Below are positions 13,938 to 52,668 of a stretch of 55,149 nt of DNA, piece by piece. Numbering within the stretch: position 1 is the first letter of the stretch; the number at the start of each line of letters is the position of its first letter. Made by a program: the position numbers and the translations under genes. The stretch is from a virus. The notes under the pieces were generated by a model. The model saw nothing but the letters and a program-made list of their open reading frames with translations. It was not told the origin of the DNA and did not search any database. The stretch is from IMG/VR virus record IMGVR_UViG_3300037149_000085, positions 1 to 55,149 of that record; one strand, given 5' to 3'.

Positions 13938-14513
13938 ATGACAAAGATCACACTTTTAGCAGTAGTATTAGTCGCAATTACATTAGGGTTTCCGGCTCAT
14001 AGGTTGATGCAGAAGAATAGAGCGCTAACCCACCAACTAGAACAGAAGGACAAACAGCTCAATCAGGTGCAGGTTGAGCTGATGCAAGTGAAGCACCTTC
14101 TAGAGACCTCGGAGCAGAAGCTCGGATATCTAGCGGCTCATAAGACTCCGGTGCAGGTCACTGCTTTTTGCAAGCAGCCACACTCTAATCGATTCGCGAA
14201 CGGACACAATGTTCATTCCGCTTATGCTGTTAAGAAGCGTACTCTTCCCGACGACGTCATCGTAAACGTCGCCCTCTCCCCTACTACTCAGCGGAGACTG
14301 AATGCACGGATGGGGGATTTGATCGTGATCATGGATAAGAATGGACATCGGAAGACTGTTGCCCGGTTTGTGGATACTACATTTGCCGGAGAGTCTCGTG
14401 CGGTTATCGACGTGTACTTCGCCAATCCCGAGAACGCTCGTCACTGGGGTCGAAAAGACGGGTATTACGCCGTAAATATTTCAGGAAAGGCGTCCCCATT
14501 CAGGGTGAACTGA
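13938..14513 (+). CDS. Membrane-anchored double-psi beta-barrel (3D-domain-like) protein, putative lysis or wall enzyme
   Basis: This 191-residue protein has one N-terminal transmembrane helix (residues 4-19) and a coiled coil (about 24-66). The C-terminal domain (about 71-185) reads like the 3D/RlpA-type double-psi barrel: VQVTAFC, then VARFVDTTFAG with Asp146-Thr147, then IDVYFANPENARHWG with Asp158. In bacterial and phage proteins this fold binds or cleaves peptidoglycan glycan strands (MltA/YabE group). The anchor-plus-coil layout puts the domain in the periplasm or cell envelope. It lies beside the minus-strand lysozyme, so a joint lysis role is plausible. AAGGAG six bases before the ATG fixes the start. 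Fold assignment is from motifs only. Confidence 0.6.
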   Translation: MTKITLLAVVLVAITLGFPAHRLMQKNRALTHQLEQKDKQLNQVQVELMQVKHLLETSEQKLGYLAAHKTPVQVTAFCKQPHSNRFANGHNVHSAYAVKKRTLPDDVIVNVALSPTTQRRLNARMGDLIVIMDKNGHRKTVARFVDTTFAGESRAVIDVYFANPENARHWGRKDGYYAVNISGKASPFRVN

Positions 14514-14525
14514 GTATTAGGTAAC
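14513..14525 (+). promoter_or_regulatory. AGTATTAG box, 5 bases before ATG (copy 1 of 4)
   Basis: AGTATTAG at 14513-14520 is followed by exactly five bases and the ATG at 14526. The same box-to-ATG spacing recurs at 42587, 51984 and 52432. It resembles a -10 element (TATTAG), which would place transcription start at or next to the ATG. No convincing -35 is present. Confidence 0.5.
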
Positions 14526-14759
14526 ATGAAAATCATTTCACTAAACGACGACTTGTACGATTACCTAGGGTTGGTGGTTAAGCGGTACGCAGGCGGGGGT
14601 ATAGACCCGGATGAAGGTTTGGGCCTTTACCATCTATGGCAAGCGCTTAAAGGCGCGGTCGATACGGCAGAGCTCCTCCCTCAAAGAGAGAACTCGATGA
14701 AGCAGGAAGAGGGGGACTCGGAACCTATCACTGCCAAGTCCCCGTCCGGAGCTGTGTAG
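14526..14759 (+). CDS. Small hypothetical protein
   Basis: This 77-residue acidic protein is not recognised. The first 45 residues look folded (ISLNDDLYDYLGLVVKRYAGGG) and the tail is Ser/Glu/Pro-rich. It has no Shine-Dalgarno; instead the AGTATTAG box lies five bases upstream. Its 3' end runs 32 bp into the 3' end of the convergent lysozyme gene. Confidence 0.6.
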   Translation: MKIISLNDDLYDYLGLVVKRYAGGGIDPDEGLGLYHLWQALKGAVDTAELLPQRENSMKQEEGDSEPITAKSPSGAV

Positions 14760-15183
14760 CCAGCCTAGTTGCCCTATCTCCAACTTCAGTTGCCCATTTA
14801 CTGTCAAGTAATTGGGCGGCGGCAGCCGCATACTGGCCTTCTTTTATGAAGTCCAGTGTGTGGGTGAACGCCAACAACCCTGATTTGCTGGGGATTCCTA
14901 TACCCATATTGAAAACTAGGTTTGTTATGACCCCTCTATACACATCGGGGAGCGCTAGTGCCCATGGCAGGTGTGTTGTGATTTCAGCCGTTGCGTGCGC
15001 GATGTCAGCCGTCAGGAAAGCCTCAGCTTGTGCCAGTGTAATGGGAACTAATGCCCCTCCGTCATCGGTTAAATTATGACCCCACCCTACCGTGATGCGC
15101 GGGGGCGTTGCCGTGTCCTTATACGGAACCAATCTCAGGCCTTCGTCCCTACGTAGCTGATCGTTAATGTTAGAAATTTTCAT
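14728..15183 (-). CDS. T4-type lysozyme (glycoside hydrolase family 24), probable endolysin
   Basis: This 151-residue protein is slightly shorter than T4 lysozyme (164). The family active site is present in order: Glu14 in LRRDEGLRL, Asp23 in PYKDT, and Thr31 in ITVGWGH, matching T4 E11/D20/T26. It hydrolyses the MurNAc-GlcNAc bond of peptidoglycan. No signal peptide or membrane segment is seen, so release would need a holin, which is not identified here. AGGAGA about eight bases upstream on the minus strand fixes the start. It is the second gene of a two-gene minus-strand unit set against the surrounding + strand operons, and converges on the small gene at 14526. Confidence 0.92.
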   Translation of the reverse strand: MKISNINDQLRRDEGLRLVPYKDTATPPRITVGWGHNLTDDGGALVPITLAQAEAFLTADIAHATAEITTHLPWALALPDVYRGVITNLVFNMGIGIPSKSGLLAFTHTLDFIKEGQYAAAAAQLLDSKWATEVGDRATRLATQLRTGTWQ

Positions 15184-15200
15184 ACAATTCTCCTAAAGTT

Positions 15201-15698
15201 TTATCCCGGGGGTAATGCACTGGTTGAATATATTTGATCCGTCGAAAAATCGAGGGTAATAACCAAGCTGGTCTGTATTGCACTCCCTGCCTCGGGGGTG
15301 TATATAACCGATAACTTCCCATTTGCGTAGGTAAGCCCACTAGGGGTATACCCAGCCAGCAGCCCACTATTGTTTCCCCCAAGAGCTAGCCCATCGGACA
15401 CCAACGCCTGCATCCAAAGGTTTAGAGCGGGGGTGGTTTCATCAAGAATCACTAGTGATACTTCGGACAAAAGAACGAGGCAAGCCGCAGGGAACGTCTG
15501 GGAGCTACCCCGATAGGTTCCGAATGCTTCGCTGTACCATGAGGCTGGGGAATCCCCTGTGGGCTCCCCATCGAGATACTTCTGTCCGTCTGCCGCAAAC
15601 CCGGTGTGGTTTCCTAGCGGGTAGAAAAATGAGTCGGCAGGGTTTGGCGAGATTACGAGGGTAGAGATTATTGATTGATTGAGATACGAGTACGCCAT
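15201..15698 (-). CDS. Hypothetical protein in the minus-strand lysozyme unit
   Basis: This 165-residue protein of beta-rich appearance (SYLNQSIISTLVIS, LSVIYTPEAGSAIQTSLVITLDFS) has no transmembrane helix, so it is not an obvious holin. The start at 15698 is preferred over an upstream ATG at 15731 because GGGGAG lies just before it on the minus strand. That element sits in a small hairpin. The stop is 17 bp before the lysozyme ATG, suggesting one transcript. It could be a virion or lysis accessory protein; nothing in the sequence decides. Confidence 0.6.
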   Translation of the reverse strand: MAYSYLNQSIISTLVISPNPADSFFYPLGNHTGFAADGQKYLDGEPTGDSPASWYSEAFGTYRGSSQTFPAACLVLLSEVSLVILDETTPALNLWMQALVSDGLALGGNNSGLLAGYTPSGLTYANGKLSVIYTPEAGSAIQTSLVITLDFSTDQIYSTSALPPG

Positions 15699-15705
15699 TG
15701 AGACT

Positions 15706-15719
15706 CCCCTATAAAGGGG
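15706..15719 (-). promoter_or_regulatory. Small hairpin over the ribosome-binding site of the 15698 gene
   Basis: A perfect 5-bp stem (CCCCT/AGGGG) with a 4-base loop holds the GGGG of the minus-strand ribosome-binding site, 8 bases from the ATG. It could damp translation of the lysozyme unit. The stretch 15720-15787 between the divergent genes is AT-rich and should hold both promoters, but none is clear. Confidence 0.35.
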
Positions 15720-15787
15720 GTGTATAGACAAAACGCAGGCGCTGTAATGAAAACTGACTATCTAATTCGTTAGAGAGGTCAAGACCT

Positions 15788-18700
15788 GTGATTCAATACG
15801 AAAATACTTCGCGTACGCTGGACGCCACCGGGAAAAGCCTTCTCGGACTTATCTATCTTCATGATCAGGAAGCTGCAGACTGCGACCTTAATCTTTCGAG
15901 TGCAATACAAACTCTTGCTCGTCAGCGGCTGTTGAATGACCAAGTAACTTCCGGATGTTTGACTTACAGCCCTATGGTTTTTAACACATCAGTAGAAAAC
16001 ACGTTCACAATTCCCTCGTTTGACGTCCTATTTAACGGCGAGGTAGTGACTATTACCGGAAGCCAGTCCACAGACTTAACTTTGAACCGGATTATTATTC
16101 CTCCCCCCTCGATGTATTTACCCGAGACCCCCGCTAGTCTCTACGTTGTATTCCTCGAAATTTGGTATCAAAACCTTGACCCTACGACTGGGCAGGGGTA
16201 CTACACTGACCCAGTATCCGGTGCACTTTATTACTTTCCATACGGGGGTGTCAGCCCAGACCCTTCAGCATTTACAGGCACTACATGGGACGACGATTCA
16301 TTATCGTTAGACGCAAACAACCAATCCGTGTACACCACTGCCCGGGCTCAAATACAGTGGAGATTGAATGTGCAGGAAGTTGCCCTCACCTACGATTTCA
16401 CGAAGTACCAATACGGTATTGATCCCGGCGCTATTCCTACAGAGATTGTTTATGCACAGGCAGCTTTACCCACGGCTACGCTTGGGATGTCTCCCCTTAA
16501 TGGAGACCCCACTTATCAATTCATTAATATGGGTACTGTGACAGGGGATACCGGATTATGGCAAGCCGGAGATGGGAATGTTAATAATTCTCTAGGCACA
16601 ATGGATGGTTACTCTTATGCCATGCCAATTGCGGTGGTTTTTCAAAAGAATTCTGGGGCATTCGATCTTTCAACTAACATTTTCGGCTGCGCCGACGCTC
16701 AAAGCTCCACTCCTACCGGATTGATTGCATACGGAGTGTCCGGAAGGTTTGACTCAAAACTTGCTGACCAGATTTTTGCCGATGATGTTGTGGATACTAG
16801 ACAGACGGTGCAATTAGATGGCTGGGACTACGATAAACTTGTAAGAGATGGGTTCTCCGATCTTGTGCTAGGTAACAGTCGAAACAAGATAGCCAGAGGC
16901 GAGGCCCCCGGTATGAATTCAACAGCGCTGGGATCAATCCTTGATTATTACGTAAGTGTCGCTCCCGTTAATACCTCGGGAGGGGTTGATATTGTCGGTA
17001 CATGGGATGGGTTTGCAAATGGCTTTAGTTCTGATGCTCGTTCTTATACAGTGTCAAAACGAGTAGTCACTACACAGAAGACTACGGGCATTATTGGGGG
17101 CAACTGGGCACAAGGAGATACCTTTATCGTCGCCCTGCCTGTATCTTCCTCCGCAGCGATTACTTCGTTGAGTATCCAAGCGTTAGTTAGCAGATTAGGG
17201 GGTGGGGTAACCCCCGTGACTATTCTTCCGGGACAGGTGACCATCACAGGATTGGGGACAACATCGGTTGCCGTAAACTTGTCATCCAACTTGACCAACA
17301 CCCCCTTTGATCCGGGATCGAATCCAATCTATGTTGCATTGACCGTACAATATCCCGCAGGAACGGGAATTGATCTAAGGAAGACCCTAATATCAGTCCA
17401 AGGAGGGGTACTTACAGACTCAACTTTAGGGCAAGGCATTCCGATTTTCGGGGTCTCAGAGTACGCGGTTCAGTCCGACCATAAACCTACACAGGCGTTG
17501 CGGGTTACCAGCATCAATCCCAAGTACTCCGATACTTTTCTAGGGACTAAAATTTGGGTTACAGTTGCGGGGGCACTCGGGGTTTCCATTACAACAGGAG
17601 GGGTTACTCTAACCACGTTCTCAATAGACAGAACTGGAGGAGGAAACGGACTAGATAACGGGATTAACGGGTTTTACCCCACCCATGTTTGGGACTATGC
17701 AACGGGAGCACAGTACACGATTTATAAGTGTGCGATGAACGCAAGTCAGTGCGTCATTACCCTTCAAGGCGGAGTTCCTACAACTTCTACGTTAGTGATG
17801 AGTTTCCTTGCTCAAGGGACCGCCCAGCTCGCATACAATGCCCCAGTACGAGGCGTGACGGAAATTGAAGAGACAGTGTTGTTCGGAAATTACACGGGAA
17901 CTACTCAGTTCCCGATGGACACTCGCGTTACTGTTCCCTCGGTTAGCTATGATCCTTTGTCTAACTCATCTACTGTGGTTCTAGCGGCTACCGAATGTGT
18001 TATCAAAGGAATCTCAGGTAACAACATCAACAAATACATCTGGCTGTCGGATAGTGTGGGTAACTTAACCTGCTGCCCCGTTGCCCAACCTAATTTCAGC
18101 GGTGGGGTGGTGTCGGTAGTAGTTCCGGGGGTCAATTTAATCCCTTCTACGGGTGCGATTAATTTCCTGTTTTGCGGTTCCATTCTTCCCGCACTTTCTG
18201 CCGCGTCTTCGCTGGTGATTCAAGAACAGTATGTTCCCTACCAAGGTGTAGGTGTATCGGGTCGGGATTATGAAGTGGTTCATACCGAAGACAATGCTCT
18301 TATTACTACAAATGGGACAGGGGCCGCGCCCGTTCCCGGGATTTCCGATGTTTATCCCTACAACCGAGAACTGCCTATTGTCACCATGCTGCCTGCACAA
18401 GTCACGTGGCAGGATTCTACATTGACCAATTCCCCGTTGTCCACATATTTTGATTCTAACTATGTGGCAATGAGAATGAGTAACGTTGAGCACACATTCT
18501 TAGCGCCACTTCATGTGAATGATTTTATTCAGCCAATTACTCGCGATATCAAGAAATCTATACGGTTGGTGACTGAGGGGGGTAATCGAGGATTTTCTAT
18601 TGCCACTCCACACGTTGGTTTTGCCATTGCTCCTCCAGCACTACGCTCGGTGCTGGGACAGAACCTTCAAGCCACTACGACACCAGTGACGCTGTACGTG

Positions 18701-19588: not shown

Positions 19589-19591
19589 AAT

Positions 19592-28950: not shown

Positions 28951-28959
28951 GGGGGAAAG

Positions 28960-32249: not shown

Positions 32250-35200
32250 ATGTCAACACCTTTAGCTAACCTCGTGTTCATTACCCCCGTTGTTCCTTCG
32301 GGAACTAATGTCATTTCGGTGGATTCTTCTGTCTTCCCGTTTACCATTCAAGCGGACTTGAACACAGTTAGCCTGACTATAACTTATGGGAATACCTCAT
32401 TTAGCTTTGCTCAACCTACTCAAGTAGGGGGGTACAACCAATTTACGGGCTCAATACCGCTGGTGCTAGGGGATAGTGCACTCCAGTGTATTGGATGGAA
32501 TTTTGATCGAAGCCTTAACACACAAACCAGCACGTTGAATATCTTGTTCGTGTCCACCGGGGATGCAGTGGTGATTGGGCCTCCCTCCGGAGTTAGCTCA
32601 TATAAAGCACAGAATTTGTGTCAGTTGGAGTGGGTTCAGCCTATTTACACGGGAACAATCGGGGTTAGGGTTATGCTTTCCACTGACCCGACTGGGGTGA
32701 CCACTCCATTCACTCAGTATGGTGACCTCGTCCCTCCGAGTGCAGTTTCACGCACTCAAAACGCTGTAATAAGTACTAATTCAAACACTGTCACTACCAC
32801 GAACTCTACCACGACTACAACCGTGCAGAACACTGTTCCAGTTACTTACTGCAGTGTTACAATCCCTAGTTCCAGCATGAACGGGGTGACCCAGTTTTAT
32901 GCTATGCTCTCCACAGTCATTCAAGACCCTAATAGCGGGGCTATTTATGAATCGCAGCAAATAGGTCCGGTTACATGCGGATTTGTTTCCCTTAATGTTG
33001 TCGCTCCCACCGACTTCTTAGCCCTTCAACGGAAAGAGGATGTGGCCGGACGTTACATGGGTCACGTATACAACATTTACCCTAATCTGGATATGACCCC
33101 GCGAAAGGAACTGCGTGATTTATTCATCGACCCGTTCTCTCTGGAAGTCTCCAACCAAAGTGTGCGAGAGTGGTTCTCTAGAGTCTCAGTTTCAGTCTCA
33201 GCCCTAAGTCAAATTGACGATGCAAATGCGGATGGAATCAGCGATTCCTTCGATTCGTCACCTATTAAGCAGCAGATTGCTCGGGCGTACGGGCTTACCA
33301 ATTCGACCGACGTTCAAAATTTTATTGATCAGCAGTTCGATATCAACGGAGAGAAGGTAGGACGCCCGCGTAAAGGGGAGGTGGCGTCCGTTGTAACTTT
33401 GACTTGTTACACCTATATCTTACCTACTAGTACCGTGACAATTCCCGTAGGAACGCTTGTTGGCACCTCCGCCAATTCGGAGACTACGGCTCTTACGTTT
33501 GTTACGACGGGAAGTGCAGTGGTTACGGCTGCTAGTGCTGCAAGTTTTTACAATTCGGCGTATGGGTGGTGGAGTGTCAACATCCCAGCTCAGTGCACAT
33601 CAACAGGCAGCGTTACGAATGTCAACGAGGGGGCTATCACTAATACAGTCACCCCATTGCCAGCAGGATGGGGTGTCACCAACCTGAACGCGGCTGAGTT
33701 CGGAGATGATCAAGAACTGAACTCCAAGTATGCTGCTCGAATTGAGAATCGCTACATCACTGGGATTGACAGCGGAACCCGTGGTGGGCTTTTAGATACT
33801 GCACTAGCAACCCCGGGAATTATCTCGGCTCAAGTTGTAGCGGCGGGCGATCTGTACATGTTACGCGACTGGGATTCATTACGTAGAAAGCATGTGTACG
33901 GGTGTGTAGATATCTATACACAAGGTACCAGCTCTTCGCAGCAGACAGACTCCGTTCCGTACAGCTACGTTAATAGCAGCCCGGATACCGCAGCTTGGGT
34001 GAATTCACTAACGTTCACTATCTCTCCGGCTGTCTCGGACCCAAGTTACCCCTATTACACTCCGCTGGAGTTTGCAGTGAATCGGACAGGGTCTGCAACG
34101 GTGTATTTCGGGGTTACCTCAGCCCAGTACAATAATTCAACAGGGCAGATCATCCTGAATGGGAATGACTTGGCGTATCAGTATGTAGGGGATGCTAACT
34201 CCCGAGCAAAGGTACCAGTTCTCATCACATTACCGGGGGCCTCAGTCGCGACCGCCGCGACGAACACTCAGCTTTTAAGTATCGTTAAGGCTTCGGGTTC
34301 CTACCAAGTTACATCGCGTTATCTATCTCCGCTACTGGATACGCCGGGGTACCAACCGTTGTTGAATGTTAACTCTGTGGTTGGGGCAGGGGTTACAGGG
34401 GCGGTTGCTACCAACCTTATCACATTAACTCACACCTCAGATTTTCTTCTGTACGGGGGCTCTAATGAGGCGGGCGATTATGTTAACGTCGCTACCAACT
34501 CTTCAGTCCCGGTGACTAAGACGATTACAGTCTCAGCTTCAACCCCGACTGTGATCGACAGCGCCATGGATGTCCCCTTGAGCACCGTTGGTGTTCCTTT
34601 AGGCATCAATTCGGTGTTGAGCACAGACTTGTCCACGGTATACAGCAGTGGAATTGATTACAATATTGTCCCTATGGGGTTATACCATCAGTATGGCATT
34701 GAGCTTATTCCTGTAACCACAAGTATCACAGGACTTTCGGTGTCTAATAATATGCTCACCCTCGTGACCAACAATAATTTTCAAGTGGGGTCAGTGGTTA
34801 CAATTGAGGGTATTCCGGATACTCCAAGCACAAACCCAACCTATCTTAATGGGGCTAGTTTTACAATAGCGACAAGCAACAATGCGGGGGTGACAGGTAT
34901 TTGCCCCGTTCAGCCGGGTGTTCCGGTCTCCCTCACTTCCCTAACCGCAACTTTGACCGGAACTCGGATTCTGCATGGGCAGCAACTAACTGTTGGGTAC
35001 AACCAATTTCCAATCAGCGAGAATCTGACATTCCAAACAGAGTCACTTCAAGTACTCGCATCAGGGGTGCTGTTGTCAAACACCGGATTTGTGTACAACG
35101 TCGCCGTTCCAGAGAGTTACGGTTACACCGCGCTTACGCTGGACGGTTGGAATGGTAATTTTACCCACGACAGTAATGGTAATATAACTGGATTAGACAC

Positions 35201-36194
35201 TACTAATTCCACGGGGTTGGTTGGAAACGGGGTTCCTTACACAAGTCGCTATATTAAAGTGGTGTACAACGGCAGCATCATGCGGGAGAATACAGATTTC
35301 ATGTTGTCAGTGGATGCTGCAACAGGGACAGCAGGGGTCGCGAGAATCGTTGGTGGTGGAATCCCGGAAGGTGGGCTATGTATCATCAGTTACTATACTA
35401 ACGAAGTATTTTCCATAAGCACACAATATCCTGCGTTTGTTGAAGCACTAGTGACCCAAATAGCCCAGACACAACATGCTTGCGGGGACGTGATTGTAAA
35501 ATCAAAATTAGCTTCCCCTGTAGACATTACATTAATGGTGGTGCTTGAAAACAACGCAACCCCGGAGACTATGGACCCGATTATCCGGACGGCGGTGGGT
35601 GTTTGTTTGAGTAACGCCAACGGCACTCTTGACCAATCAGAAATTGTGGGTCAGGTGCGAGCCTTGACGGGAGTGAAGAAGGTCGTCCTACCCCTTATCA
35701 AGTGTGCAAAAAGTGATGGGGCGTATGACGTGGGAGTGACGATTCCAACTCAAACTAATTGGATTCCAATCGGGCAAGACCCGGCATTTGCGAAGTACAC
35801 AGGTAGCTCATACTCGACGTTCTACATCAGCGCCAATCAAGTATTGAGTGACAGCACGATTCCATCAGGAGGTGCAGCGGGCGCATTTGTAAACATTCTT
35901 GATCAAGGGGATGGGTACACTCGCACAATGTCAATAACGGAGTTCTTAACTAGCCCTCCTCAAAGTTTCTACATCATCGGATCGAACGACAGTATCAACG
36001 CTTCGACACCACTAGATTACAGCTATTCCCGCCGTGTGATGCTTCACACGCCCGTGGGAATCACCCCTGCGTTGGAATCCTTTTTGGTCACGTACCAAGT
36101 GTATGGTGAAGGCGGGGTTAGTGACATCTCGATTTCTCCCATTGAATACTTGAGCGCAGGTAGGATTACAGTATTGTATGGGACGGGGAATTAA
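32250..36194 (+). CDS. Baseplate J-like wedge protein (gp6/gp47 type), enlarged
   Basis: This 1314-residue protein has a core that reads as baseplate J: GEVASVVTLTCYTYILP, then AAEFGDDQELNSKYAARIENRYITGIDSGTRGGLLDTALATPGIISAQVV (about 480-530), and a C-terminal arm near 1090-1150 (ITLMVVLENNATPETMDPI, then LTGVKKVVLPLI). An N-terminal 260-residue region of Ig/FN3-like strands and inserted sandwiches make it two to three times the usual J size. J proteins form the inner wedge ring that couples receptor binding to sheath contraction. It is followed by a gpI-like gene, as expected. Confidence 0.75.
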   Translation: MSTPLANLVFITPVVPSGTNVISVDSSVFPFTIQADLNTVSLTITYGNTSFSFAQPTQVGGYNQFTGSIPLVLGDSALQCIGWNFDRSLNTQTSTLNILFVSTGDAVVIGPPSGVSSYKAQNLCQLEWVQPIYTGTIGVRVMLSTDPTGVTTPFTQYGDLVPPSAVSRTQNAVISTNSNTVTTTNSTTTTTVQNTVPVTYCSVTIPSSSMNGVTQFYAMLSTVIQDPNSGAIYESQQIGPVTCGFVSLNVVAPTDFLALQRKEDVAGRYMGHVYNIYPNLDMTPRKELRDLFIDPFSLEVSNQSVREWFSRVSVSVSALSQIDDANADGISDSFDSSPIKQQIARAYGLTNSTDVQNFIDQQFDINGEKVGRPRKGEVASVVTLTCYTYILPTSTVTIPVGTLVGTSANSETTALTFVTTGSAVVTAASAASFYNSAYGWWSVNIPAQCTSTGSVTNVNEGAITNTVTPLPAGWGVTNLNAAEFGDDQELNSKYAARIENRYITGIDSGTRGGLLDTALATPGIISAQVVAAGDLYMLRDWDSLRRKHVYGCVDIYTQGTSSSQQTDSVPYSYVNSSPDTAAWVNSLTFTISPAVSDPSYPYYTPLEFAVNRTGSATVYFGVTSAQYNNSTGQIILNGNDLAYQYVGDANSRAKVPVLITLPGASVATAATNTQLLSIVKASGSYQVTSRYLSPLLDTPGYQPLLNVNSVVGAGVTGAVATNLITLTHTSDFLLYGGSNEAGDYVNVATNSSVPVTKTITVSASTPTVIDSAMDVPLSTVGVPLGINSVLSTDLSTVYSSGIDYNIVPMGLYHQYGIELIPVTTSITGLSVSNNMLTLVTNNNFQVGSVVTIEGIPDTPSTNPTYLNGASFTIATSNNAGVTGICPVQPGVPVSLTSLTATLTGTRILHGQQLTVGYNQFPISENLTFQTESLQVLASGVLLSNTGFVYNVAVPESYGYTALTLDGWNGNFTHDSNGNITGLDTTNSTGLVGNGVPYTSRYIKVVYNGSIMRENTDFMLSVDAATGTAGVARIVGGGIPEGGLCIISYYTNEVFSISTQYPAFVEALVTQIAQTQHACGDVIVKSKLASPVDITLMVVLENNATPETMDPIIRTAVGVCLSNANGTLDQSEIVGQVRALTGVKKVVLPLIKCAKSDGAYDVGVTIPTQTNWIPIGQDPAFAKYTGSSYSTFYISANQVLSDSTIPSGGAAGAFVNILDQGDGYTRTMSITEFLTSPPQSFYIIGSNDSINASTPLDYSYSRRVMLHTPVGITPALESFLVTYQVYGEGGVSDISISPIEYLSAGRITVLYGTGN

Positions 36195-42559: not shown

Positions 42560-42573
42560 GGCAATCTTCTCTC

Positions 42574-42586
42574 AGTATTAGTGGGT
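42574..42586 (+). promoter_or_regulatory. AGTATTAG box, 5 bases before ATG (copy 2 of 4)
   Basis: CTCAGTATTAGT, with TATTAG at 42576-42581, is followed by five bases and ATG 42587. The 12 bases CTCAGTATTAGT recur exactly at the 51984 gene. Confidence 0.55.
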
Positions 42587-43150
42587 ATGGAACATCCATC
42601 ACCCGTTATGCAAAGTATCCTCGAAAATATGTCCGACCTTTATGAGGCTGGGCTCTTCACAGGTCAGGAACACACCTCAGCTAAAACATGCGTCCGGCAG
42701 ATTCCCGCCGCCTTCAAGAAGATCAATTGGGAGCCCGACACCATCAACCTCGACTACGGCGGCGGCTGCTACTGGGACACTACCGAGTACCTTTTCGATC
42801 TGGGTGTTGCCAACATCGTGATCGACCCCTACAACCGCCCACCTGAACATAACAGACTCTCCATAGAGATGCTGACCTCGACTCGCCTCGCTGATACGGC
42901 GACGATCTGCAATGTTCTCAACGTGATTAAAGAACATATTGTTCGCCTTGGAGTACTTTTCCGGGTGAAATGTCTCGTCTTGCCGGGCGCTACCGTGTAC
43001 ATTAGCTGCTACCGTGGAAACGGCACCACGCCTACTTTAACGTCGCGAGGTTGGCAGGAGAATCGACCGCTTAAGACCTACCTTGACGAGGTGAAGGAAA
43101 TTTTTCCCGATGCAGAAATAAAAAACGGAATGATCATTGCAAGGAACTAG
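42587..43150 (+). CDS. SAM-dependent methyltransferase-like protein
   Basis: This 187-residue protein carries a class I methyltransferase motif I, INLDYGGGCYWDT (DYGGG 56-60), then VIDPYNR (acidic residue 80) and a CNVLNVIKEH motif IV-like segment (109-117). The substrate is unknown; nucleotide, DNA or small molecule are all possible. The ATG at 42587 is five bases after the AGTATTAG box; GTG 42581 is an alternative start. Confidence 0.7.
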   Translation: MEHPSPVMQSILENMSDLYEAGLFTGQEHTSAKTCVRQIPAAFKKINWEPDTINLDYGGGCYWDTTEYLFDLGVANIVIDPYNRPPEHNRLSIEMLTSTRLADTATICNVLNVIKEHIVRLGVLFRVKCLVLPGATVYISCYRGNGTTPTLTSRGWQENRPLKTYLDEVKEIFPDAEIKNGMIIARN

Positions 43151-43367: not shown

Positions 43368-43396
43368 TTGAAATTCTCTCTCACCTGTTTTATACT
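43368..43396 (+). promoter_or_regulatory. Sigma70-type promoter, apparently leaderless
   Basis: TTGAAA (43368-43373), 17 bases, TATACT (43391-43396), then 7 bases to the ATG at 43404. Transcription would start at or next to the ATG, giving a leaderless mRNA. No ribosome-binding site is present. Confidence 0.75.
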
Positions 43397-43403
43397 AATC
43401 TAC

Positions 43404-43913: not shown

Positions 43914-43950
43914 GAATTGAGGACGATTTATAATTATTTTTTAAAATGCC

Positions 43951-43979
43951 TTGCAAATTTGTTCTGACTCCCGTATAGT
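43951..43979 (+). promoter_or_regulatory. Sigma70-type promoter, apparently leaderless
   Basis: TTGCAA (43951-43956), 17 bases, TATAGT (43974-43979), 6 bases, ATG 43986. Same design as the promoters at 43368, 46375 and 50246. Confidence 0.75.
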
Positions 43980-43985
43980 AATCAT

Positions 43986-44300: not shown

Positions 44301-44302
44301 TT

Positions 44303-45956: not shown

Positions 45957-45991
45957 GATTGAGACGCCAGACGACGAGGAAGGAGTAGCTT

Positions 45992-46342: not shown

Positions 46343-46374
46343 GGAAAATTTCGTAAAATTAATTAAAAATTATC

Positions 46375-46403
46375 TTGCTTTTCCAACTACTCAGTACTAT
46401 AGT
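46375..46403 (+). promoter_or_regulatory. Sigma70-type promoter, apparently leaderless
   Basis: TTGCTT (46375-46380), 17 bases, TATAGT (46398-46403), 6 bases, ATG 46410. A degenerate copy (TATAGC, 46624-46629) lies upstream of the paralogous gene at 46650. Confidence 0.7.
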
Positions 46404-46409
46404 AGAGGT

Positions 46410-46610: not shown

Positions 46611-46649
46611 GATGGCTGCCGTGTATAGCAGAGGTACTGGAGAACAGGT

Positions 46650-46832
46650 ATGAAAAAGGACTTCAAGAAAATCGCCGCCCAGAGGAAAGCAGCCACCGAG
46701 CGTTCCGACTCTATCCGAGTTAAGATTGAGGCAGCTTTTGCCCAGATGTGTGAGACCCAGCCGGGCTCCCCGGAGGAGGCCGTTTTGGCAGAAAAACTAG
46801 CCAACCTGACCTTTATGGGAAGGGAAAAGTAG
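46650..46832 (+). CDS. Small basic helical protein, tandem paralogue 2
   Basis: This 60-residue protein, like the preceding gene, has a basic N-terminus and the GSPE...AEKLA end. GGAG seven bases before the ATG supports the start. Upstream DNA resembles the promoter of the first copy, as expected after tandem duplication. Confidence 0.6.
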   Translation: MKKDFKKIAAQRKAATERSDSIRVKIEAAFAQMCETQPGSPEEAVLAEKLANLTFMGREK

Positions 46833-47434
46833 TGTCGGTCTGCAGGGTAGACAAGAATCTTGATAGGTACCCTCCCGAGTTGAGGAAGCACATCAACGAA
46901 CGTATGACCGACCGCACCTTCCTCCCTCCTATGCGCGTCGAGCTTCAAAATTGGTTAGATACTCTACCCATCGCTCCCGACCTAGATGAAGCCCCTCAAG
47001 GTATGGGGTGGAAGCAAAAATTCGAGTCTTTCACCATTTACGGTGAGGGTAAGCTGGTTAAGACCTTAGGCACCATCTATAACCCGATTACCGACCGCCC
47101 TGCCGCTATTGATCTTCGAGAGTGGGTAATGAAACAAAAGGCGGGCAGGTATGAGCATATTATGGTGGCAAATGAGTACCTTGATGGGCTGCGCAAACAA
47201 GGATATAACAAGGCATACGTCTACCACACATCCGGTGACAGCGTTTACATCGCGCTCTTTTCTGACCCTAATAACAAGAATAGACCCGGTGTTGTCAAGC
47301 TTAACGGAAAACCTGTACAGGTGTTGGTCCGATTCAGCAACGACACCAGCGGAATCAAGGAAAAAGAATGTCTACAGGAGTGGAAGGGTGAGACTGCTTC
47401 CGCTTTGGTGGAGCGCACCATGAACGGTAGTTGA
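46832..47434 (+). CDS. Hypothetical protein, 200 residues
   Basis: The start is GTG overlapping the previous TAG (TAGTG). The protein is mixed alpha/beta (YEHIMVANEYLDGLRKQGYNKAYVYHTSG, KPVQVLVRFSND). It is not recognised. Its stop is two bases before the left end of element 2. Confidence 0.6.
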   Translation: MSVCRVDKNLDRYPPELRKHINERMTDRTFLPPMRVELQNWLDTLPIAPDLDEAPQGMGWKQKFESFTIYGEGKLVKTLGTIYNPITDRPAAIDLREWVMKQKAGRYEHIMVANEYLDGLRKQGYNKAYVYHTSGDSVYIALFSDPNNKNRPGVVKLNGKPVQVLVRFSNDTSGIKEKECLQEWKGETASALVERTMNGS

Positions 47435-47444
47435 GGAGCGCAAT

Positions 47445-47463
47445 CCCAGATTTTTAATCTGGG
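47445..47463 (+). repeat. Left-end hairpin of element 2
   Basis: An 8-bp stem CCCAGATT/AATCTGGG with TTT loop sits within GCAAT...TAAGCGA, the same layout as the left end at 52647 and, less perfectly, at 54637. Confidence 0.8.
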
Positions 47464-47497
47464 TAAGCGACGACTTTGATTGAGAAAGGAGGATACC

Positions 47498-48544
47498 GTG
47501 ATTCAGACACAACTAAAACTTCGGATGTGCAAGACGCAAGAGAAGACTGCTGAGTCATGGCTTCCTATTCTCGGCTCTGTTTTCAATTTTGCAGCCAGGA
47601 AGGTAGAACTCAACGCCAAAGACAAAATCTATTTCTCCAAGAACGATTTCCAGAACCTACTGGCGAACCACGGAGAGCGACTGGGGATTCCTAGCCACAC
47701 GTTGCAGGGAGTTCTCTGCACTGTGCACGATGCGTGGAAGCGTTGCTTCAAGAAGACTGCTGGCAAGCCACGTCTTAAAGGAATGCGGAACAAACTCACC
47801 AGCATTCCGTTTCCTGACCCCATCAAGGCTCCGAAAGGTAATCGCATCACTCTGCCGAGTCTGGGTAGTGTCCGCTTCTACAAGATGGACATTCCAGATG
47901 GTAAAATCAAGTGCGGTCGCATGGTCAAACGTGCATCGGGTTGGTATCTCTGCCTGTTCATAGATGCAGAGCCGAGGAAGATTGAGCGGACTGGGTATGG
48001 AGAAATTGGAATCGACTCAGGCTTCTCGAATCTACTGACAACTTCGGACGGAGAAATCATCGAACACCCACGGGAGTTGGAAGCCAGTGCAAAACGATTG
48101 GCACAAGCACAACGTGGCCACGACAAACAGTTGGCAGCAAGGATTCAGGAACGGGTTGCCAACCGCAAGAAAGATAGAAATCACAAAATCACGACACGGC
48201 TAGTCAGTGAGAACGTGATAATCGTATGGAGCAAAGATAACCACAAGGGAATAGCCAAGAAGTTTGGGAAGAGCGTAGCGAGTTCTGCTCACGCACAGAT
48301 TCGAGGAATGCTGTCGTACAAGTCGCCCACAAGCGGTACGACGTTCATCGAGACTGCTTCAAAAGATTCCACCAAGACTTGTAACGAATGTGGTAAGCCA
48401 ACTGGCCCCACAGGACTCGCAGGATTGTCGGTAAGAAGTTGGGTGTGTAGAGACTGTGGAGCCTCGCACGATAGGGACGTAAACGCCGCTATCAACACCC
48501 TCAACATCGGGGCAGGATGTGCCCACGAGGTTGCCTATGTCTAA
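47498..48544 (+). CDS. tnpB: TnpB with a missing canonical RuvC-II glutamate
   Basis: This 348-residue TnpB starts at GTG 47498, seven bases after AAAGGAGG. RuvC Asp173 (GEIGIDSGFSN) and Asp327 (HDRDVNAAIN) and zinc ribbon Cys295/298/317/320 are intact. The position of the RuvC-II Glu (usually VVExLN) reads IIVWSKDN, with Trp244. In some TnpB clades this Glu is relocated, so activity cannot be ruled out; in others loss gives a nuclease-dead RNA-guided binder. The protein is otherwise complete. The guide RNA would come from the 3' end of the gene through the right end at 48589. Confidence 0.85.
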   Translation: MIQTQLKLRMCKTQEKTAESWLPILGSVFNFAARKVELNAKDKIYFSKNDFQNLLANHGERLGIPSHTLQGVLCTVHDAWKRCFKKTAGKPRLKGMRNKLTSIPFPDPIKAPKGNRITLPSLGSVRFYKMDIPDGKIKCGRMVKRASGWYLCLFIDAEPRKIERTGYGEIGIDSGFSNLLTTSDGEIIEHPRELEASAKRLAQAQRGHDKQLAARIQERVANRKKDRNHKITTRLVSENVIIVWSKDNHKGIAKKFGKSVASSAHAQIRGMLSYKSPTSGTTFIETASKDSTKTCNECGKPTGPTGLAGLSVRSWVCRDCGASHDRDVNAAINTLNIGAGCAHEVAYV

Positions 48545-48558
48545 CATCGGCAAGTCAG

Positions 48559-48589
48559 GAATCCCAGACTTTAAGTCTGGGAGCATCAA
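48559..48589 (+). other. Right end of element 2 (GAAT-hairpin-TCAA)
   Basis: GAAT guide (48559-48562), CCCAGAC/GTCTGGG hairpin, AGCA, then TCAA cleavage tetranucleotide, as in IS608, where GAAT and TCAA are the known right guide and right cleavage site. Confidence 0.8.
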
Positions 48590-48632
48590 GTGGTTTAAAA
48601 CTCTCAAGAATGCTTCACAAAAGAAGGTAAGT

Positions 48633-49979
48633 ATGGCGGATATTTTAGGCTCAATGGAAGAGGACAATTTCGATGGTGTAAACAGCCATCCCAGTGATCT
48701 GGGATTGAGTAAGAAGCCCGAAATTAGAGGAGACGAGGATAACGACCCCTGTTTCCTATCCCTTCCCAATCGCCGGAAGTCGAAGAAAGCATCCACTCAG
48801 CCGTCTACATATGTGCTGACAGTTAAAAATAAATTTCCAAAGGCGTTTGTAAAGCCTTCCTTTCCTTCTCCCTATATTCGCCGACCAAAATCCTACACCG
48901 TGATGGATGGTGTGGTTACAAGTCCGGAGATTGATGAAGAGGGCTTTCCTGCATGCACCCAGATTTCCGATGAGTGTGACACTGCAATCGCCGCTTGGGA
49001 GAGTGCCGCTTCTCGCTTGAAGGCGGTAGAAGACCCACCGAAGAAAGCACCGGAAGTGACCGAGGTTGTGTTTACTAATCTCGCTGTGGCCAGTACAGTA
49101 GTGAACACGTATCAACACCTCGGGATGACCAAAGAGATGCTCCCTAAGAAGGGTATGGCTGTATGGCTGGTGCCCCCAATCGCCTCCGGTTATATTCCAG
49201 TGAAGGTTAGTTGGACAGATACCAAGTCTACTCATGGCGAGAGACTCTATCGCTGCGAGCACTGTAAACCTATGTCAGAGAAGCACCTTGAGCAGGGGAA
49301 AGCGGCTACCAGCCGCATGGAGAGCAAGATGACAACTACTACAATCACAGTTGGAGAGGTAACAGCGGAAGTCCGGCCTAGCGGCTGGAATATCTCGCTC
49401 GACATCTACAAATCCGGAAAGCGCGTTTTTAGGGTTTTGATGGCCAACGGCCAAACCAGCCGAGAGCCCAGCTCTTCCGAAATCGCTAAAATCAAAGCCG
49501 CTGGATTTGACCCGGCCACCAAGCGTGTGTTGATGAGCAACCCGCCTTGCACACTAGGTACTGAGCTTGCGCTCGCTATCGATGCTGTGAGTTTGCAGAT
49601 TAAGGCCGATGCCGACGCTGCCACCGCCGAGGAGAAGGCAGCTATCGATGGTATCGAAGGGCTCAAGGAGCTGCGTGCAGCACTCAATGAGCGTGAGCGC
49701 TACAGCGAGCAATTCGCGAAAATGATGGACGATGAGCACAATGATGGCGTCCGGCCTCCTCGGCCCGCCGCCGGAAACACTGACGACCTTCGCGCCCGCT
49801 ATCCCCGCGCCGCTGCCTACATCCTCGCTGAGGCTTGGGGCGGAGCAGCTCACGATGTCAAAGCATCGGCTGGTAACAAGGCCGTCAAACGCATCCTAGC
49901 TGGGGACGATTATGCGGAAGCAATTGCCGAAATGAAAGCCACCTGGGCCGCGCATTGCGATCAGCACGTTTGGGACTAA
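48633..49979 (+). CDS. Fusion ORF: hypothetical phage protein joined to an acquired cassette gene
   Basis: 448 residues from ATG 48633 (preceded by AGAAGG); an upstream in-frame ATG lies inside element 2. Residues 1-221 are an unrecognised phage protein ending in CEHCKPMSEKHLE. Residues from about 233 (MTTTTITVGEVTAEV) look like a separate gene with its own possible start (49329), ending in a helical module (RYPRAAAYILAEAWGGAA, then AGNKAVKRILAGDDY) seen in many phage and mobile-element proteins. A 26-bp repeat encoding NLMSEKHLE-type text at 49267 and 50014 marks the join. The C-terminal part is GC-richer than its neighbours. Read as one ORF it is a translational fusion. Confidence 0.6.
   Translation: MADILGSMEEDNFDGVNSHPSDLGLSKKPEIRGDEDNDPCFLSLPNRRKSKKASTQPSTYVLTVKNKFPKAFVKPSFPSPYIRRPKSYTVMDGVVTSPEIDEEGFPACTQISDECDTAIAAWESAASRLKAVEDPPKKAPEVTEVVFTNLAVASTVVNTYQHLGMTKEMLPKKGMAVWLVPPIASGYIPVKVSWTDTKSTHGERLYRCEHCKPMSEKHLEQGKAATSRMESKMTTTTITVGEVTAEVRPSGWNISLDIYKSGKRVFRVLMANGQTSREPSSSEIAKIKAAGFDPATKRVLMSNPPCTLGTELALAIDAVSLQIKADADAATAEEKAAIDGIEGLKELRAALNERERYSEQFAKMMDDEHNDGVRPPRPAAGNTDDLRARYPRAAAYILAEAWGGAAHDVKASAGNKAVKRILAGDDYAEAIAEMKATWAAHCDQHVWD
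49267..49292 (+). repeat. 26-bp direct repeat, copy 1
   Basis: This is identical to 50014-50039. Here it lies inside the fusion ORF at the end of the original N-terminal gene. Confidence 0.9.
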
Positions 49980-50013
49980 TTCTATTCCGGGGCGCGACGG
50001 ATACGCGCAGAGC

Positions 50014-50039
50014 AACCTATGTCAGAGAAGCACCTTGAG
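50014..50039 (+). repeat. 26-bp direct repeat, copy 2
   Basis: This is identical to 49267-49292 but out of the ORF. Followed by GGGTAA, it would restore an in-frame end (PMSEKHLEG, stop) for the N-terminal gene if the 747 bp between copies were absent. Confidence 0.9.
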
Positions 50040-50050
50040 GGGTAATCAAT

Positions 50051-50224
50051 ATGAGTGACCCAGCAGAACACAGCGAAGCCATCATCAAAGAAATTGAAAT
50101 GCGGTCAATTACGTTTGTCCACGACAACATCAAAGAGCCCACTTCTATGGACTTTCTGATGATCAAGAATGCGATGTTGGTTGGGGCGTCGGTTGCGCTG
50201 GAGCGGGAAGCGGATGAACTATAG
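50051..50224 (+). CDS. Small hypothetical protein
   Basis: This 57-residue helical protein (SEAIIKEIEMRSITFVHDNI, DFLMIKNAMLVGASVALE) starts with GAGGGG about ten bases upstream. It is not recognised. Confidence 0.6.
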   Translation: MSDPAEHSEAIIKEIEMRSITFVHDNIKEPTSMDFLMIKNAMLVGASVALEREADEL

Positions 50225-50245
50225 GGTTTATTTTTAAACTAGTCA

Positions 50246-50274
50246 TTGAAATTTTTTAGGGGTACAGGTATAGT
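50246..50274 (+). promoter_or_regulatory. Sigma70-type promoter, apparently leaderless
   Basis: TTGAAA (50246-50251), 17 bases, TATAGT (50269-50274), 6 bases, ATG 50281. Confidence 0.75.
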
Positions 50275-50280
50275 AATTTT

Positions 50281-51246
50281 ATGGTTGAGACACCCAAGAT
50301 CGACGCTTTCGCCGCTACAAGCCACTACGCGGCCTCATTCTCCGAAGCTAAGAATGCCCTTGTTTCCGGAATTGCCGACCAGCAAATCTTCAACGCAGAC
50401 TTTGTGGCTGCAAAAGACGTCATCGTGCACGTTGTGGAAGCAGCTATGGACAAGGCCCAAGACGAGTCCCGGTCTCTCCGTCGCAGCCTCGGCCTCGACT
50501 ACCCTCAGTGGGAGAACAACGACCCTCGTTGGAGCATCATCTACCCCCCGCAGCTCAATAACATGCCCGGGGCGGCGAAGAAACTTCAGAAGTTCAAAGG
50601 TGAGGGGTACATCGGCGTTGTCCTTCAGATAATGGAGGAGGCTGCAGTTCTGGCTGAGTTAGTCAAGAACGTAAAACCCTACATCGTGAAGGGCCGCAAA
50701 CCTCCCGTCCTCACTGATGAACAGAAAGTTCAGGCTGAGCGTGACAAGCTGAACACGGGCATCTGCCCAGTGTGTATGCGTCGGCAGAAGCTGACCTTCG
50801 ATGGAAGCCTGGTTGCCCACGGCTATGAATTGAAGTGGGGCATGCGCAACGGTGTTTGCTTCGGACACGGTTACAAAGCGTGGGAACTGTCTCCCGAGGG
50901 AGCTATCGAGTTCGTCACCGCGTTGAAGAACAGCCTCAAGAATCTTAAAGCGCACCTGATTAAGTTGGAGGCCGGAGAGGTCGATTTGGTGATGGGGACG
51001 AAGCGCGTGAAGGAAAAGCAGTTTGGGTACAGTCGGGAAGTCCCCTGCGAGTATCACAAGGGTGAGGAAGGGTTTGAGGAAGCGCTGGTGACCACTATAG
51101 CGATGACCCGCCGCGATATTGTGGGTATCAAAGGTACCATCCCGGAAGTTGAGACCCGGGTACAAAGCTGGAAAGCGCAGCCGCTGCAGTTCGGCGGAGC
51201 TGAAACACAAGATCGTTGGAAGAGTCGGCTTTTGAATAAGAAATAA
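50281..51246 (+). CDS. Hypothetical protein with zinc-ribbon-like CxxC motif
   Basis: This 321-residue protein has an N-terminal helical half (SFSEAKNALVSGIADQQIF, GVVLQIMEEAAVLAELV). A CPVC (about 162-165) is followed by a HGYELK...CFGHG stretch resembling a phage zinc-ribbon accessory protein. No function is recognised. The leaderless promoter decides the start. Confidence 0.6.
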   Translation: MVETPKIDAFAATSHYAASFSEAKNALVSGIADQQIFNADFVAAKDVIVHVVEAAMDKAQDESRSLRRSLGLDYPQWENNDPRWSIIYPPQLNNMPGAAKKLQKFKGEGYIGVVLQIMEEAAVLAELVKNVKPYIVKGRKPPVLTDEQKVQAERDKLNTGICPVCMRRQKLTFDGSLVAHGYELKWGMRNGVCFGHGYKAWELSPEGAIEFVTALKNSLKNLKAHLIKLEAGEVDLVMGTKRVKEKQFGYSREVPCEYHKGEEGFEEALVTTIAMTRRDIVGIKGTIPEVETRVQSWKAQPLQFGGAETQDRWKSRLLNKK

Positions 51247-51261
51247 ATATTTGCTAGTAGA

Positions 51262-51291
51262 TTGACAAAAGATGACTTTCAGCAGTATTGT
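51262..51291 (+). promoter_or_regulatory. Promoter for non-coding RNA candidate
   Basis: Consensus TTGACA (51262-51267), 18 bases, TATTGT (51286-51291). It lies in a 430-base stretch with no gene longer than 27 residues. Confidence 0.6.
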
Positions 51292-51467
51292 TAGAGAGTA
51301 CCTCTTCGAGACCTCTTGACTGGGTGGGACTCGGAGATATAAGCCCAGCGGAGGATGGTTCACTCCAGAGTAAGAACCTTGCAAGGGAATTCTGAGATTG
51401 CAGGAATCCTTGCGAAAACAAAGCAATCGGGATCAGCTCCTGCCCAAAATGGGGGCACACCAAAATC

Positions 51468-51551
51468 ATGACGATGACTACACAAACTCGAATTACGAAA
51501 ACCACTATCCAAACGGGTAGCGGCTTCGAGTTTTGGTTGGGCAACTGGTAA
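51468..51551 (+). CDS. Possible very small ORF (27 residues)
   Basis: ATG 51468 to TAA 51551, MTMTTQTRITKTTIQTGSGF plus seven residues. No ribosome-binding site. It may be fortuitous within the RNA candidate. Confidence 0.25.
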   Translation: MTMTTQTRITKTTIQTGSGFEFWLGNW

Positions 51552-51578
51552 TAGTAGCCCGAGTCAAAGAGCTTGAAG

Positions 51579-51602
51579 CCGCCCTTAACCGGGCGGTTTT
51601 AC
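51579..51602 (+). terminator. Intrinsic terminator
   Basis: CCGCCC, 6-base loop TTAACC, GGGCGG, then TTTT. A strong GC hairpin with a U-tract, just before the tRNA-Ile gene. Confidence 0.85.
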
Positions 51603-51676
51603 TTTGACCCATACAGCGGGTGTTTAAGCTGTAAATGACCCCTATATGGGTACAGTCGTACCTAATTAGGGGTTAC

Positions 51677-51753
51677 AGGCGCATAGCTCAGCCCGGTAGA
51701 GCCCTCCGCTGATAACGGAGAGGTCGGTGGTTCGAATCCACCTGCGCCTACCA
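51677..51753 (+). tRNA. tRNA-Ile(GAU)
   Basis: 77 nt with complete cloverleaf: acceptor AGGCGCA/TGCGCCT, D arm GCTC/GAGC, anticodon arm CTCCG/CGGAG with loop CTGATAA (anticodon GAT), T arm GGTGG-TTCGAAT-CCACC and encoded CCA. Confidence 0.95.
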
Positions 51754-51778
51754 AGATTATGGGCAGATGACTTGGTTC

Positions 51779-51867
51779 CTCACTGCCAGAGCCGGGGGCA
51801 ATGGTGCCGCACGGTGAGCAAATGAGGCACTCGACTCCTGCGGCGTGAGTTACGCCTCTGCCGTAGG
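51779..51867 (+). ncRNA. Structured stretch between tRNA and small ORF
   Basis: CTCAC (51779-51783) pairs with GTGAG (51814-51818) enclosing GGCA/TGCC. CCTGCGGC (51837-51844) pairs with GCCGTAGG (51860-51867), with an inner GCGT/ACGC hairpin possible as an alternative. No ORF. It could be a tRNA-operon trailer or small RNA. Confidence 0.35.
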
Positions 51868-51892
51868 AGAAACGTTATTAAGGCGCAAGTAT

Positions 51893-51945
51893 CGCGCAAT
51901 ATAAATATGATACGCGCAATATACGACAAGTTTAATTGCGCGTAT
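51893..51945 (+). repeat. Direct and inverted copies of CGCGCAAT
   Basis: CGCGCAAT occurs at 51893 and 51913, exactly 20 bp apart, and inverted (ATTGCGCG) at 51935. The inner pair extends to an 11-bp perfect inverted repeat ATACGCGCAAT/ATTGCGCGTAT (51910-51920, 51935-51945). A two-helical-turn spacing suggests a protein-binding array or a terminator-like hairpin (no U-tract, A-run follows). Confidence 0.6.
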
Positions 51946-51970
51946 AAAAAGGCCGGGTTAGCTCACACTC

Positions 51971-51983
51971 AGTATTAGTCCTA
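51971..51983 (+). promoter_or_regulatory. AGTATTAG box, 5 bases before ATG (copy 3 of 4)
   Basis: CTCAGTATTAGT with TATTAG at 51973-51978, five bases before ATG 51984; matches the box at 42574. Confidence 0.55.
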
Positions 51984-52148
51984 ATGAGGACAAAGGTACT
52001 GTGGGCCATTAGAGCGAAGGATGGACGCTGGACTATACGTAATGACGACGAGGTTGACCCCAGCAAAGTGAACCCTGATGAATGGGCACTCACAAAGTTC
52101 GAGCTCCTCGTGTTCAAAGAAGACCCTCCCAAGTGGAGACCAAGTTAA
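51984..52148 (+). CDS. Small hypothetical protein
   Basis: This 54-residue protein (MRTKVLWAIRAKDGRWTIRN onward, rich in Trp/Lys/Asp) has no Shine-Dalgarno. It ends at the base before the tRNA-like gene. It is not recognised. Confidence 0.55.
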   Translation: MRTKVLWAIRAKDGRWTIRNDDEVDPSKVNPDEWALTKFELLVFKEDPPKWRPS

Positions 52149-52227
52149 GTTGGCGTGGCACAGTGGCCGACTGCACCTGATCCGTACTCAGGAATCACCG
52201 GGGGTTCAAATCCCTCCGCCAGCTCCA
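52149..52227 (+). tRNA. tRNA-like gene, anticodon reads CGU (Thr?) with unusual loop
   Basis: 79 nt cloverleaf: acceptor GTTGGCG/CGCCAGC, T discriminator and CCA encoded, T loop TTCAAAT with stem GGGGG/CCCTC, D arm GCA/TGC, anticodon stem CCTGA/TCAGG. The 7-base loop is TCCGTAC, so position 33 is C not U and the anticodon reads CGT. Variable region is 7 bases. It may be a tRNA with altered decoding or a degenerating copy. Confidence 0.6.
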
Positions 52228-52237
52228 AAGGACACAT

Positions 52238-52426
52238 ATGAACGACAGACAGTACTGGAATAAACGGTTGGATGAAGCGTACGCAAAGCGACCTAGGACC
52301 GCCGAGGAGTTCGCGGATGAACAAGTTCGCGAAATGCTTCACGCTATTCATCAACGATACGACGCTGATAAGGTGACTAAATCTTTAGCCGCCCGACTTC
52401 AGGGATTAAGGGCAGCACAGTATTAG
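52238..52426 (+). CDS. Small hypothetical helical protein
   Basis: This 62-residue protein (KRLDEAYAKRPRTAEEFADE) starts with AAAGGA 7 bases upstream, right after the tRNA-like gene. Its end CAGTATTAG is also the AGTATTAG box for the next gene. It is not recognised. Confidence 0.6.
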   Translation: MNDRQYWNKRLDEAYAKRPRTAEEFADEQVREMLHAIHQRYDADKVTKSLAARLQGLRAAQY

Positions 52427-52431
52427 ATCGT
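52419..52431 (+). promoter_or_regulatory. AGTATTAG box, 5 bases before ATG (copy 4 of 4)
   Basis: AGTATTAG (52419-52426), whose TAG is the stop of the previous gene, then five bases and ATG 52432. Confidence 0.5.
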
Positions 52432-52668
52432 ATGTCATATGAAAGTGAAACTCGAAGAACGTTTAACCGGAATCGCAAGCTGTACCTCAACACAGTGAAG
52501 GTGGGTAATAAGCATTTACCCGACCCGGTTCATATGATATATGGCTATGATCCGGACGGTACCAGAGGAGCCGGGACAAGGTTATCGGTGCGGCAGGCGA
52601 ATAAAGTTCTGAAGCCCTTCAACATGAACGGCTCGACGAGCGCAATCCCAACCTTTAGGTTGGGTTAG
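52432..52668 (+). pseudogene. 5' part of a phage gene interrupted by element 3
   Basis: 68 phage-encoded residues (to 52637), then residues read through the element's left end to a stop in its hairpin. Joining 52637 to 54153 restores one frame, giving a 117-residue basic protein. The native part (YESETRRTFNRNRKLYLNTV, DPVHMIYGYDPDG) is not recognised. Unless the element excises, the product is truncated. Confidence 0.65.
52647..52664 (+). repeat. Left-end hairpin of element 3
   Basis: CCCAACCT/AGGTTGGG, 8 bp, 2-base spacer; placed in the same GCAAT...TTAGCGA context as the end at 47445. Confidence 0.8.

Follow-up and report, generated by a model that had tools for sequence, protein, structure and literature searches.

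The late promoters of bacteriophage T4 serve virion genes and carry a TATAAATA-like element. They are recognized through a -10 element only, number about fifty copies and are read by gp55, a member of the sigma family (PMC2988020). The middle and late promoters of phages phiEco32 and 7-11 are likewise attributed to a phage sigma factor and are numerous, overrepresented and separate from host-like promoters (PMC4331800). In the giant phages AR9 and phiKZ, early promoters have an AT-rich element ending 6 nucleotides (nt) before the start point (PMC5312081), and in a class of bacterial genes, the TA-led leaderless genes, a Shine-Dalgarno sequence is lacking and the start codon follows about 12 bases after a -10-like TA signal (PMC3160421; BMC Genomics 2011 12:361). 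The element considered here, AGTATTAG followed after five bases by ATG (AGTATTAG-N5-ATG), resembles each of these in part. It lies before four genes of the IMG/VR virus record IMGVR_UViG_3300037149_000085, a 55-kb fragment (positions 1 to 55,149, hereafter the window) that codes for a large contractile-tail system. With a probability of about 0.8, we interpret AGTATTAG as the -10 element of a phage-specific promoter that Tunturiibacter phage Tunturi_5 shares with related giant myoviruses, most likely read by a phage sigma factor; the four genes of the window would be leaderless, and the promoter would serve mainly non-virion genes, probably of the middle class.

AGTATTAG occurs five times in the window, against 1.28 copies expected, and none of 100 shuffled sequences reached five. 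Four of these copies, all on the + strand, form AGTATTAG-N5-ATG, for which order-1 and order-3 Markov models gave means of 0.007 and 0.02, respectively. Since in none of 300 simulated windows did any 8-mer reach a count of four at a spacing between 0 and 20, the association is considered real despite the free choice of the motif. The first copy (14513..14520) precedes ATG 14526 of a gene for 77 amino acids (14526..14759), which is kept in four relatives; if transcription starts on the A of this ATG, the core GTATTA lies at -12..-7. The second (42574..42581) precedes ATG 42587 of a gene for 187 amino acids with a weak match to PHROG 14016 (42587..43150). The third (51971..51978), 218 nt past a tRNA-Ile gene, precedes ATG 51984 of a small gene for 54 amino acids (51984..52148), for which relatives were looked for and none found, and the fourth (52419..52426), 192 nt past a tRNA-Thr gene, precedes ATG 52432 of a gene for 78 amino acids (52432..52668) with weak similarity to Tunturi_5 gp167 (34%, E 0.004). 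All four genes are predicted to be leaderless. The fifth copy (13964..13971, + strand) lies within gene 13938-14513 with no ATG at the fixed distance, and was not counted as a promoter. The original prediction had described the box at these four genes, an identity common to two of its copies and the lack of a Shine-Dalgarno sequence, and in all these respects it was correct: the identity, CTCAGTATTAGT, is present at 42571 and 51968, and none of the four genes has a Shine-Dalgarno sequence.

The window covers part of the genome of a giant myovirus akin to Tunturi_5 (PP885688.1; 309 kb), a phage with an Acidobacteriota host and the nearest sequenced relative of the window phage. Tunturi_5 has the same box, and differs from the window phage in its G+C content of 58% and in its baseplate protein gp241, which is about 41% identical to that of the window (32250-36194) (PMC11924767). 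A search with the window proteins alone found no relatives; an alignment of the window baseplate protein with gp241 led to 80 related IMG/VR contigs, and the same alignment gave no match in bacterial genomes. The phage group probably infects Acidobacteriota, and the TnpB-like open reading frame at 52878-54110 fits such a host, since its only match in the bacterial collection was a Solibacteraceae (Acidobacteriota) genome from peat soil (51%).

The relatives were analysed as a set of 50 records (6.0 Mb, with some overlap), as 22 large records, and as 1.9 Mb of non-redundant sequence excluding the window. A controlled scan, proposed along with the original prediction, was strongly positive: AGTATTAG-N5-ATG was found 29 times in the 50 records against once in the reversed control, and [A/G]GTATTA-N6-ATG was found 117 times in the 22 large records against 13. 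In the non-redundant set, GTATTA-N6-ATG occurs 49 times, against about 9 at other spacings, and it ranked first in a blind ranking of all 4096 6-mers at 25 spacings. A Shine-Dalgarno sequence was present at 8 of 61 GTATTA-N6 sites (those of the relatives and the window's four). Several GTATTA sites of the relatives seem to lie just past tRNA 3' ends (G030:133140, G029:63909, G029:148075), and in the window a AGTATTAG gene follows about 200 nt after each of the genes for tRNA-Ile (51677-51753) and tRNA-Thr (52149-52227).

The box persists before orthologues whose proteins are roughly 40-50% identical, and orthologues with the box were found for two of the four window genes. The orthologue of the 42587 gene in relative G029 (52% over 164 residues) is preceded by CAGTATTA-N6-GTG. 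Among the orthologues of the 14526 gene, that in G041 is preceded by AGTATTAG-N6-ATG, that in G030 has a degenerate AGTATCA and a leader, and that in G029 is without the box; in G015, a Shine-Dalgarno sequence (GGAGA) lies between the ATG and AGTATTA, which stands about 19 nt upstream. As judged from these alignments, the box can apparently shift away from the start codon where a Shine-Dalgarno sequence is present. These comparisons bear on the idea that the box is a translation signal, namely a ribosome-binding or enhancer sequence of an unusual kind that keeps a fixed distance from the start codon, as the constant spacing to ATG and the missing Shine-Dalgarno sequences could suggest. In G015, however, AGTATTA, Shine-Dalgarno sequence and ATG follow one another in this order, and on this orthologue a ribosome site was rejected; in Tunturi_5, moreover, the box also stands 15-60 nt upstream of genes with a Shine-Dalgarno sequence (31 of 34), and its upstream element ATA[A/T]TC and purine at +1, described below, are features of promoters. 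We therefore regard a translation signal as highly improbable: because the box is kept before orthologues and yet can move upstream with a Shine-Dalgarno sequence in between, it is better explained as a promoter.

The genome of Tunturi_5 made it possible to examine the layout of this putative promoter. Three exact copies of AGTATTAG-N5-ATG are present, all at annotated starts (gp4, a primase; gp47, a dUTPase; gp170), with none in the reversed control. Among the 6-mers upstream of annotated starts, GTATTA shows the strongest enrichment, with 39 occurrences in the last 45 nt before them against 1.45 expected. Out of 64 copies in the genome, 49 have a start on the same strand at most 100 nt downstream, 14 of them at exactly N6, and the promoter class with GTATTA as its -10 element comprises about 55 copies. 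When the sites are aligned on GTATTA, ATA[A/T]TC appears at -27..-22 from its G, followed by TGGGTATTAGC, with an AT-rich stretch above ATA[A/T]TC and TGG immediately 5' of GTATTA. To judge from this alignment, the promoter at the Tunturi_5 sites has two parts, set apart by a spacer of unusual length (21 bases).

Two independent facts support the register. At leaderless sites, i.e. those with the start codon 6-7 bases past GTATTA, a Shine-Dalgarno sequence is present in 1 of 15 cases, against 31 of 34 at leadered sites (Fisher p 1.4e-8), and the predicted +1 position of the leadered sites is occupied by G in 28 cases, A in 8, T in 5 and C in 2 (p ~1e-6 for G). With +1 placed on the A of ATG at the N6 sites, GTATTA would span -12..-7, where a -10 element is normally found. 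Transcription of the four window genes would then start on the A of ATG, so that their mRNA would be without a leader and translation would begin at a 5'-terminal AUG. The original prediction of a promoter driving leaderless genes thus appears well supported by sequence, considering the -10 register, the lack of Shine-Dalgarno sequences in the leaderless subset only, the purine at +1 in the leadered one, the orthologues, the enrichment in the phage group and its absence from chromosomes of the host phylum.

The claim that no -35 element is present needs to be qualified. It is correct for the window, in which no TTGACA-like element was found at the four sites (score 2.50 against 2.43 at random positions; TTG in 0 of 4) and no common -35 emerged by eye or from position counts, and it loosely holds for most relatives, whose GTATTA sites have no strict -35 and only a weak preference for A around -17. 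It does not hold in the same form for Tunturi_5, where the TTGACA-like score is also low (2.00 against 2.34) but the upstream element ATA[A/T]TC is clear, though non-canonical.

These data are relevant to the possibility that the sites are sigma-70 promoters of the usual host type, with TATTAG as a degenerate -10, and that their genes are leaderless because the host tolerates it. Four host-like leaderless promoters do occur in the window, all on the + strand and all within its non-structural region: TTGAAA-N17-TATACT-N7-ATG(43404) at 43368..43403, TTGCAA-N17-TATAGT-N6-ATG(43986) at 43951..43985, TTGCTT-N17-TATAGT-N6-ATG(46410) at 46375..46409 and TTGAAA-N17-TATAGT-N6-ATG(50281) at 50246..50280; in addition, TATTAT, common at N5 in the relatives, fits TANNNT. 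In contrast, the four AGTATTAG sites lack a -35, the box is one base off the TATANT register, and Tunturi_5 pairs GTATTA with ATA[A/T]TC at a 21-base spacer, not with TTGACA at 17. Furthermore, AGTATTAG-N5-ATG is not enriched in genomes of the host phylum: 99 Acidobacteriota genomes (395 Mb) contained 24 copies against 46 in the reversed control, a density about 80 times below that of the phages. Without a -35 and without enrichment in the host phylum, a host promoter was rejected as the main explanation, and we consider it unlikely. The comparison with TA-led genes leads to a similar distinction. The features of that class, a -10-like signal about 10-12 nt upstream and no Shine-Dalgarno sequence, are found here; in TA-led genes, however, the signal is the TANNNT of host sigma-70, whereas the signal described here, GTATTA[G/T], is specific to the phages and shows no enrichment in the phylum to which the host probably belongs (PMC3160421). 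The sequences establish the motif and its register, show that it is enriched and kept among orthologues, and separate it from host-like promoters.

As to the reader of the promoter, the original prediction invoked a phage-encoded sigma factor, which is plausible: the annotation of Tunturi_5 includes two sigma factors, gp211 and gp3, and gp3-like proteins were found in 12 of the 22 large records. The window, a fragment, contains no sigma gene. gp211 is a clear extracytoplasmic function (ECF)-like sigma factor (Pfam region 2, E 2e-11) with relatives in crAss-like phages, and its family was matched in 4 of the 22 records searched. The gp3-like family (e.g. L007:3240-4220, family A3) is very divergent, is widespread in the phage group and has no Pfam model; its members are possibly a new sigma family, as the model of one of them suggests, for which the best PDB matches found with Foldseek were nearly all sigma factors. 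Because GTATTA promoters span the whole group and gp3-like proteins are widespread in it, the latter would be the better candidates. The box is likely read by a phage-encoded sigma factor, and in the mechanism we propose, the host RNA polymerase would be directed to it by such a factor, most probably a divergent gp3-like protein.

A number of observations weigh against this interpretation. The AlphaFold2 model of the gp3-like protein is of low confidence (predicted local distance difference test score, pLDDT, 70.5; predicted template modelling score, pTM, 0.47), and its Foldseek E-values are weak, 0.02 or worse. A Pfam search with gp3 gave nothing above threshold, a search of PDB sequences with its profile gave only chance matches, and the comparison of the gp3-like profile with that of ECF sigma factors (4.6%) was not significant by probability. 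The co-occurrence of motif and gene is imperfect: G040 has a gp3-like gene and no site, and G030, G020, G045 and G046 have sites and no gp3-like gene that could be found, although all of these are possibly fragments. Finally, the four window sites share no upstream element, and the Tunturi_5 element ATA[A/T]TC is absent from them at -27, so that the window does not show the Tunturi_5 promoter in full; four sites are too few for an upstream element to be defined there.

A different reader, namely a phage-encoded RNA polymerase, either multisubunit as in phiKZ and AR9 or single-subunit, could be considered in place of a sigma factor acting on the host enzyme, given that the early promoters of AR9 (AAATATATATTAT-N6-G) have the same 6-nt gap to +1, an AT-rich -10 and no -35 (PMC5312081). 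However, a search for the RNA polymerase beta subunit domain RNA_pol_Rpb2_6 (PF00562) had no match in 11 large records while all controls were matched, although very divergent phage subunits could escape it, and Tunturi_5 has both an ECF-like sigma factor and a second sigma candidate. A search for single-subunit RNA polymerases gave no match, and its controls likewise gave none. AR9/phiKZ promoters are read by a virion multisubunit polymerase and AR9 leaders measure 26-491 nt (PMC5312081), unlike the situation described here, in which no polymerase subunit was found in the 11 records. A phage polymerase seems improbable, and the sigma factor remains our preferred reader.

The distribution of the box in Tunturi_5 is informative about the genes served. 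It lies within 100 nt of 1 of 43 virion genes, against 48 of 307 others (p 0.017), and the class is found mostly on DNA-replication, nucleotide and function-unknown genes; the non-virion genes with the box include those for primase, helicases, dUTPase, thymidylate synthase, dCMP deaminase, SSB and RuvC. A GTATTA site is also present 186 nt upstream of gp3 itself. The suggestion that the box might be a phage late-promoter core was therefore not borne out; because the sites favour non-virion genes, their distribution suggests a middle rather than a late class. The promoter would serve mainly replication, nucleotide metabolism and small genes of unknown function. The features of T4-type late promoters are not found, the sequence here being AGTATTAG and the virion genes being almost devoid of it; compared with T4 late promoters (PMC2988020), the Tunturi_5 class has another sequence and a conserved upstream element, and avoids virion genes. 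The phiEco32 and 7-11 promoters differ in having a TGATGT core, and the available part of their description does not mention leaderless geometry (PMC4331800). As a separate candidate for a late promoter of the window, CCCCTATA was rejected, as its 3 copies against 1.54 expected are not above chance.

To the best of our knowledge, based on the open-access literature, the GTATTA motif has not been described before, and the text of the Tunturi_5 paper makes no mention of promoters or sigma factors (PMC11924767). We see about even chances that it represents a new promoter class in the full sense, with a divergent gp3-like sigma factor lacking a Pfam model, the arrangement ATA[A/T]TC, 21-base spacer, GTATTA and +1 six bases on, tens of genes per genome, about one third of them leaderless, and a promoter that moves between leaderless and leadered positions among orthologues. 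The transcription programme of a giant soil phage group can be read from sequence alone, and its cultured member, Tunturi_5, allows it to be tested. The data suggest that replication and nucleotide genes are systematically expressed from leaderless messages, and leaderless translation of phage regulons has been little described; with a distance between promoter and ATG that varies among orthologues, the group offers a natural experiment in which leaderless initiation can be compared with initiation at a Shine-Dalgarno sequence.

A second class of promoters was observed in Tunturi_5, consisting of TCATCTTT, about 16 bases and TTTGTAGGTTGA (e.g. PP885688.1 18187, 53579, 54777). Combinations of TCATCTTT with GTAGGTTGA occur at about 30 sites, of which eight are leaderless, and GTAGGTTG is present in 37 copies; 30 of these lie no more than 100 nt from a start, including 8 with the start codon about 5 bases on; the class is absent from the 43 virion genes. 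Tunturi_5 gp41, the homologue of window gene 50281-51246, has a leaderless promoter of this second class, and homologues of the same window gene in G024 (L183) and G041 (L185) adjoin an ECF-like sigma gene. Two phage-specific promoter classes and two candidate sigma factors are thus suggested for this group. In the window, similar hairpin-forming sequences (GCAATCCCA...TGGGT.AGCGA) are found at 47436-47470, 52636-52670 and 54625-54660, each directly before one of three IS200/IS605-like transposase stretches, and resemble guide-RNA scaffolds or the ends of elements.

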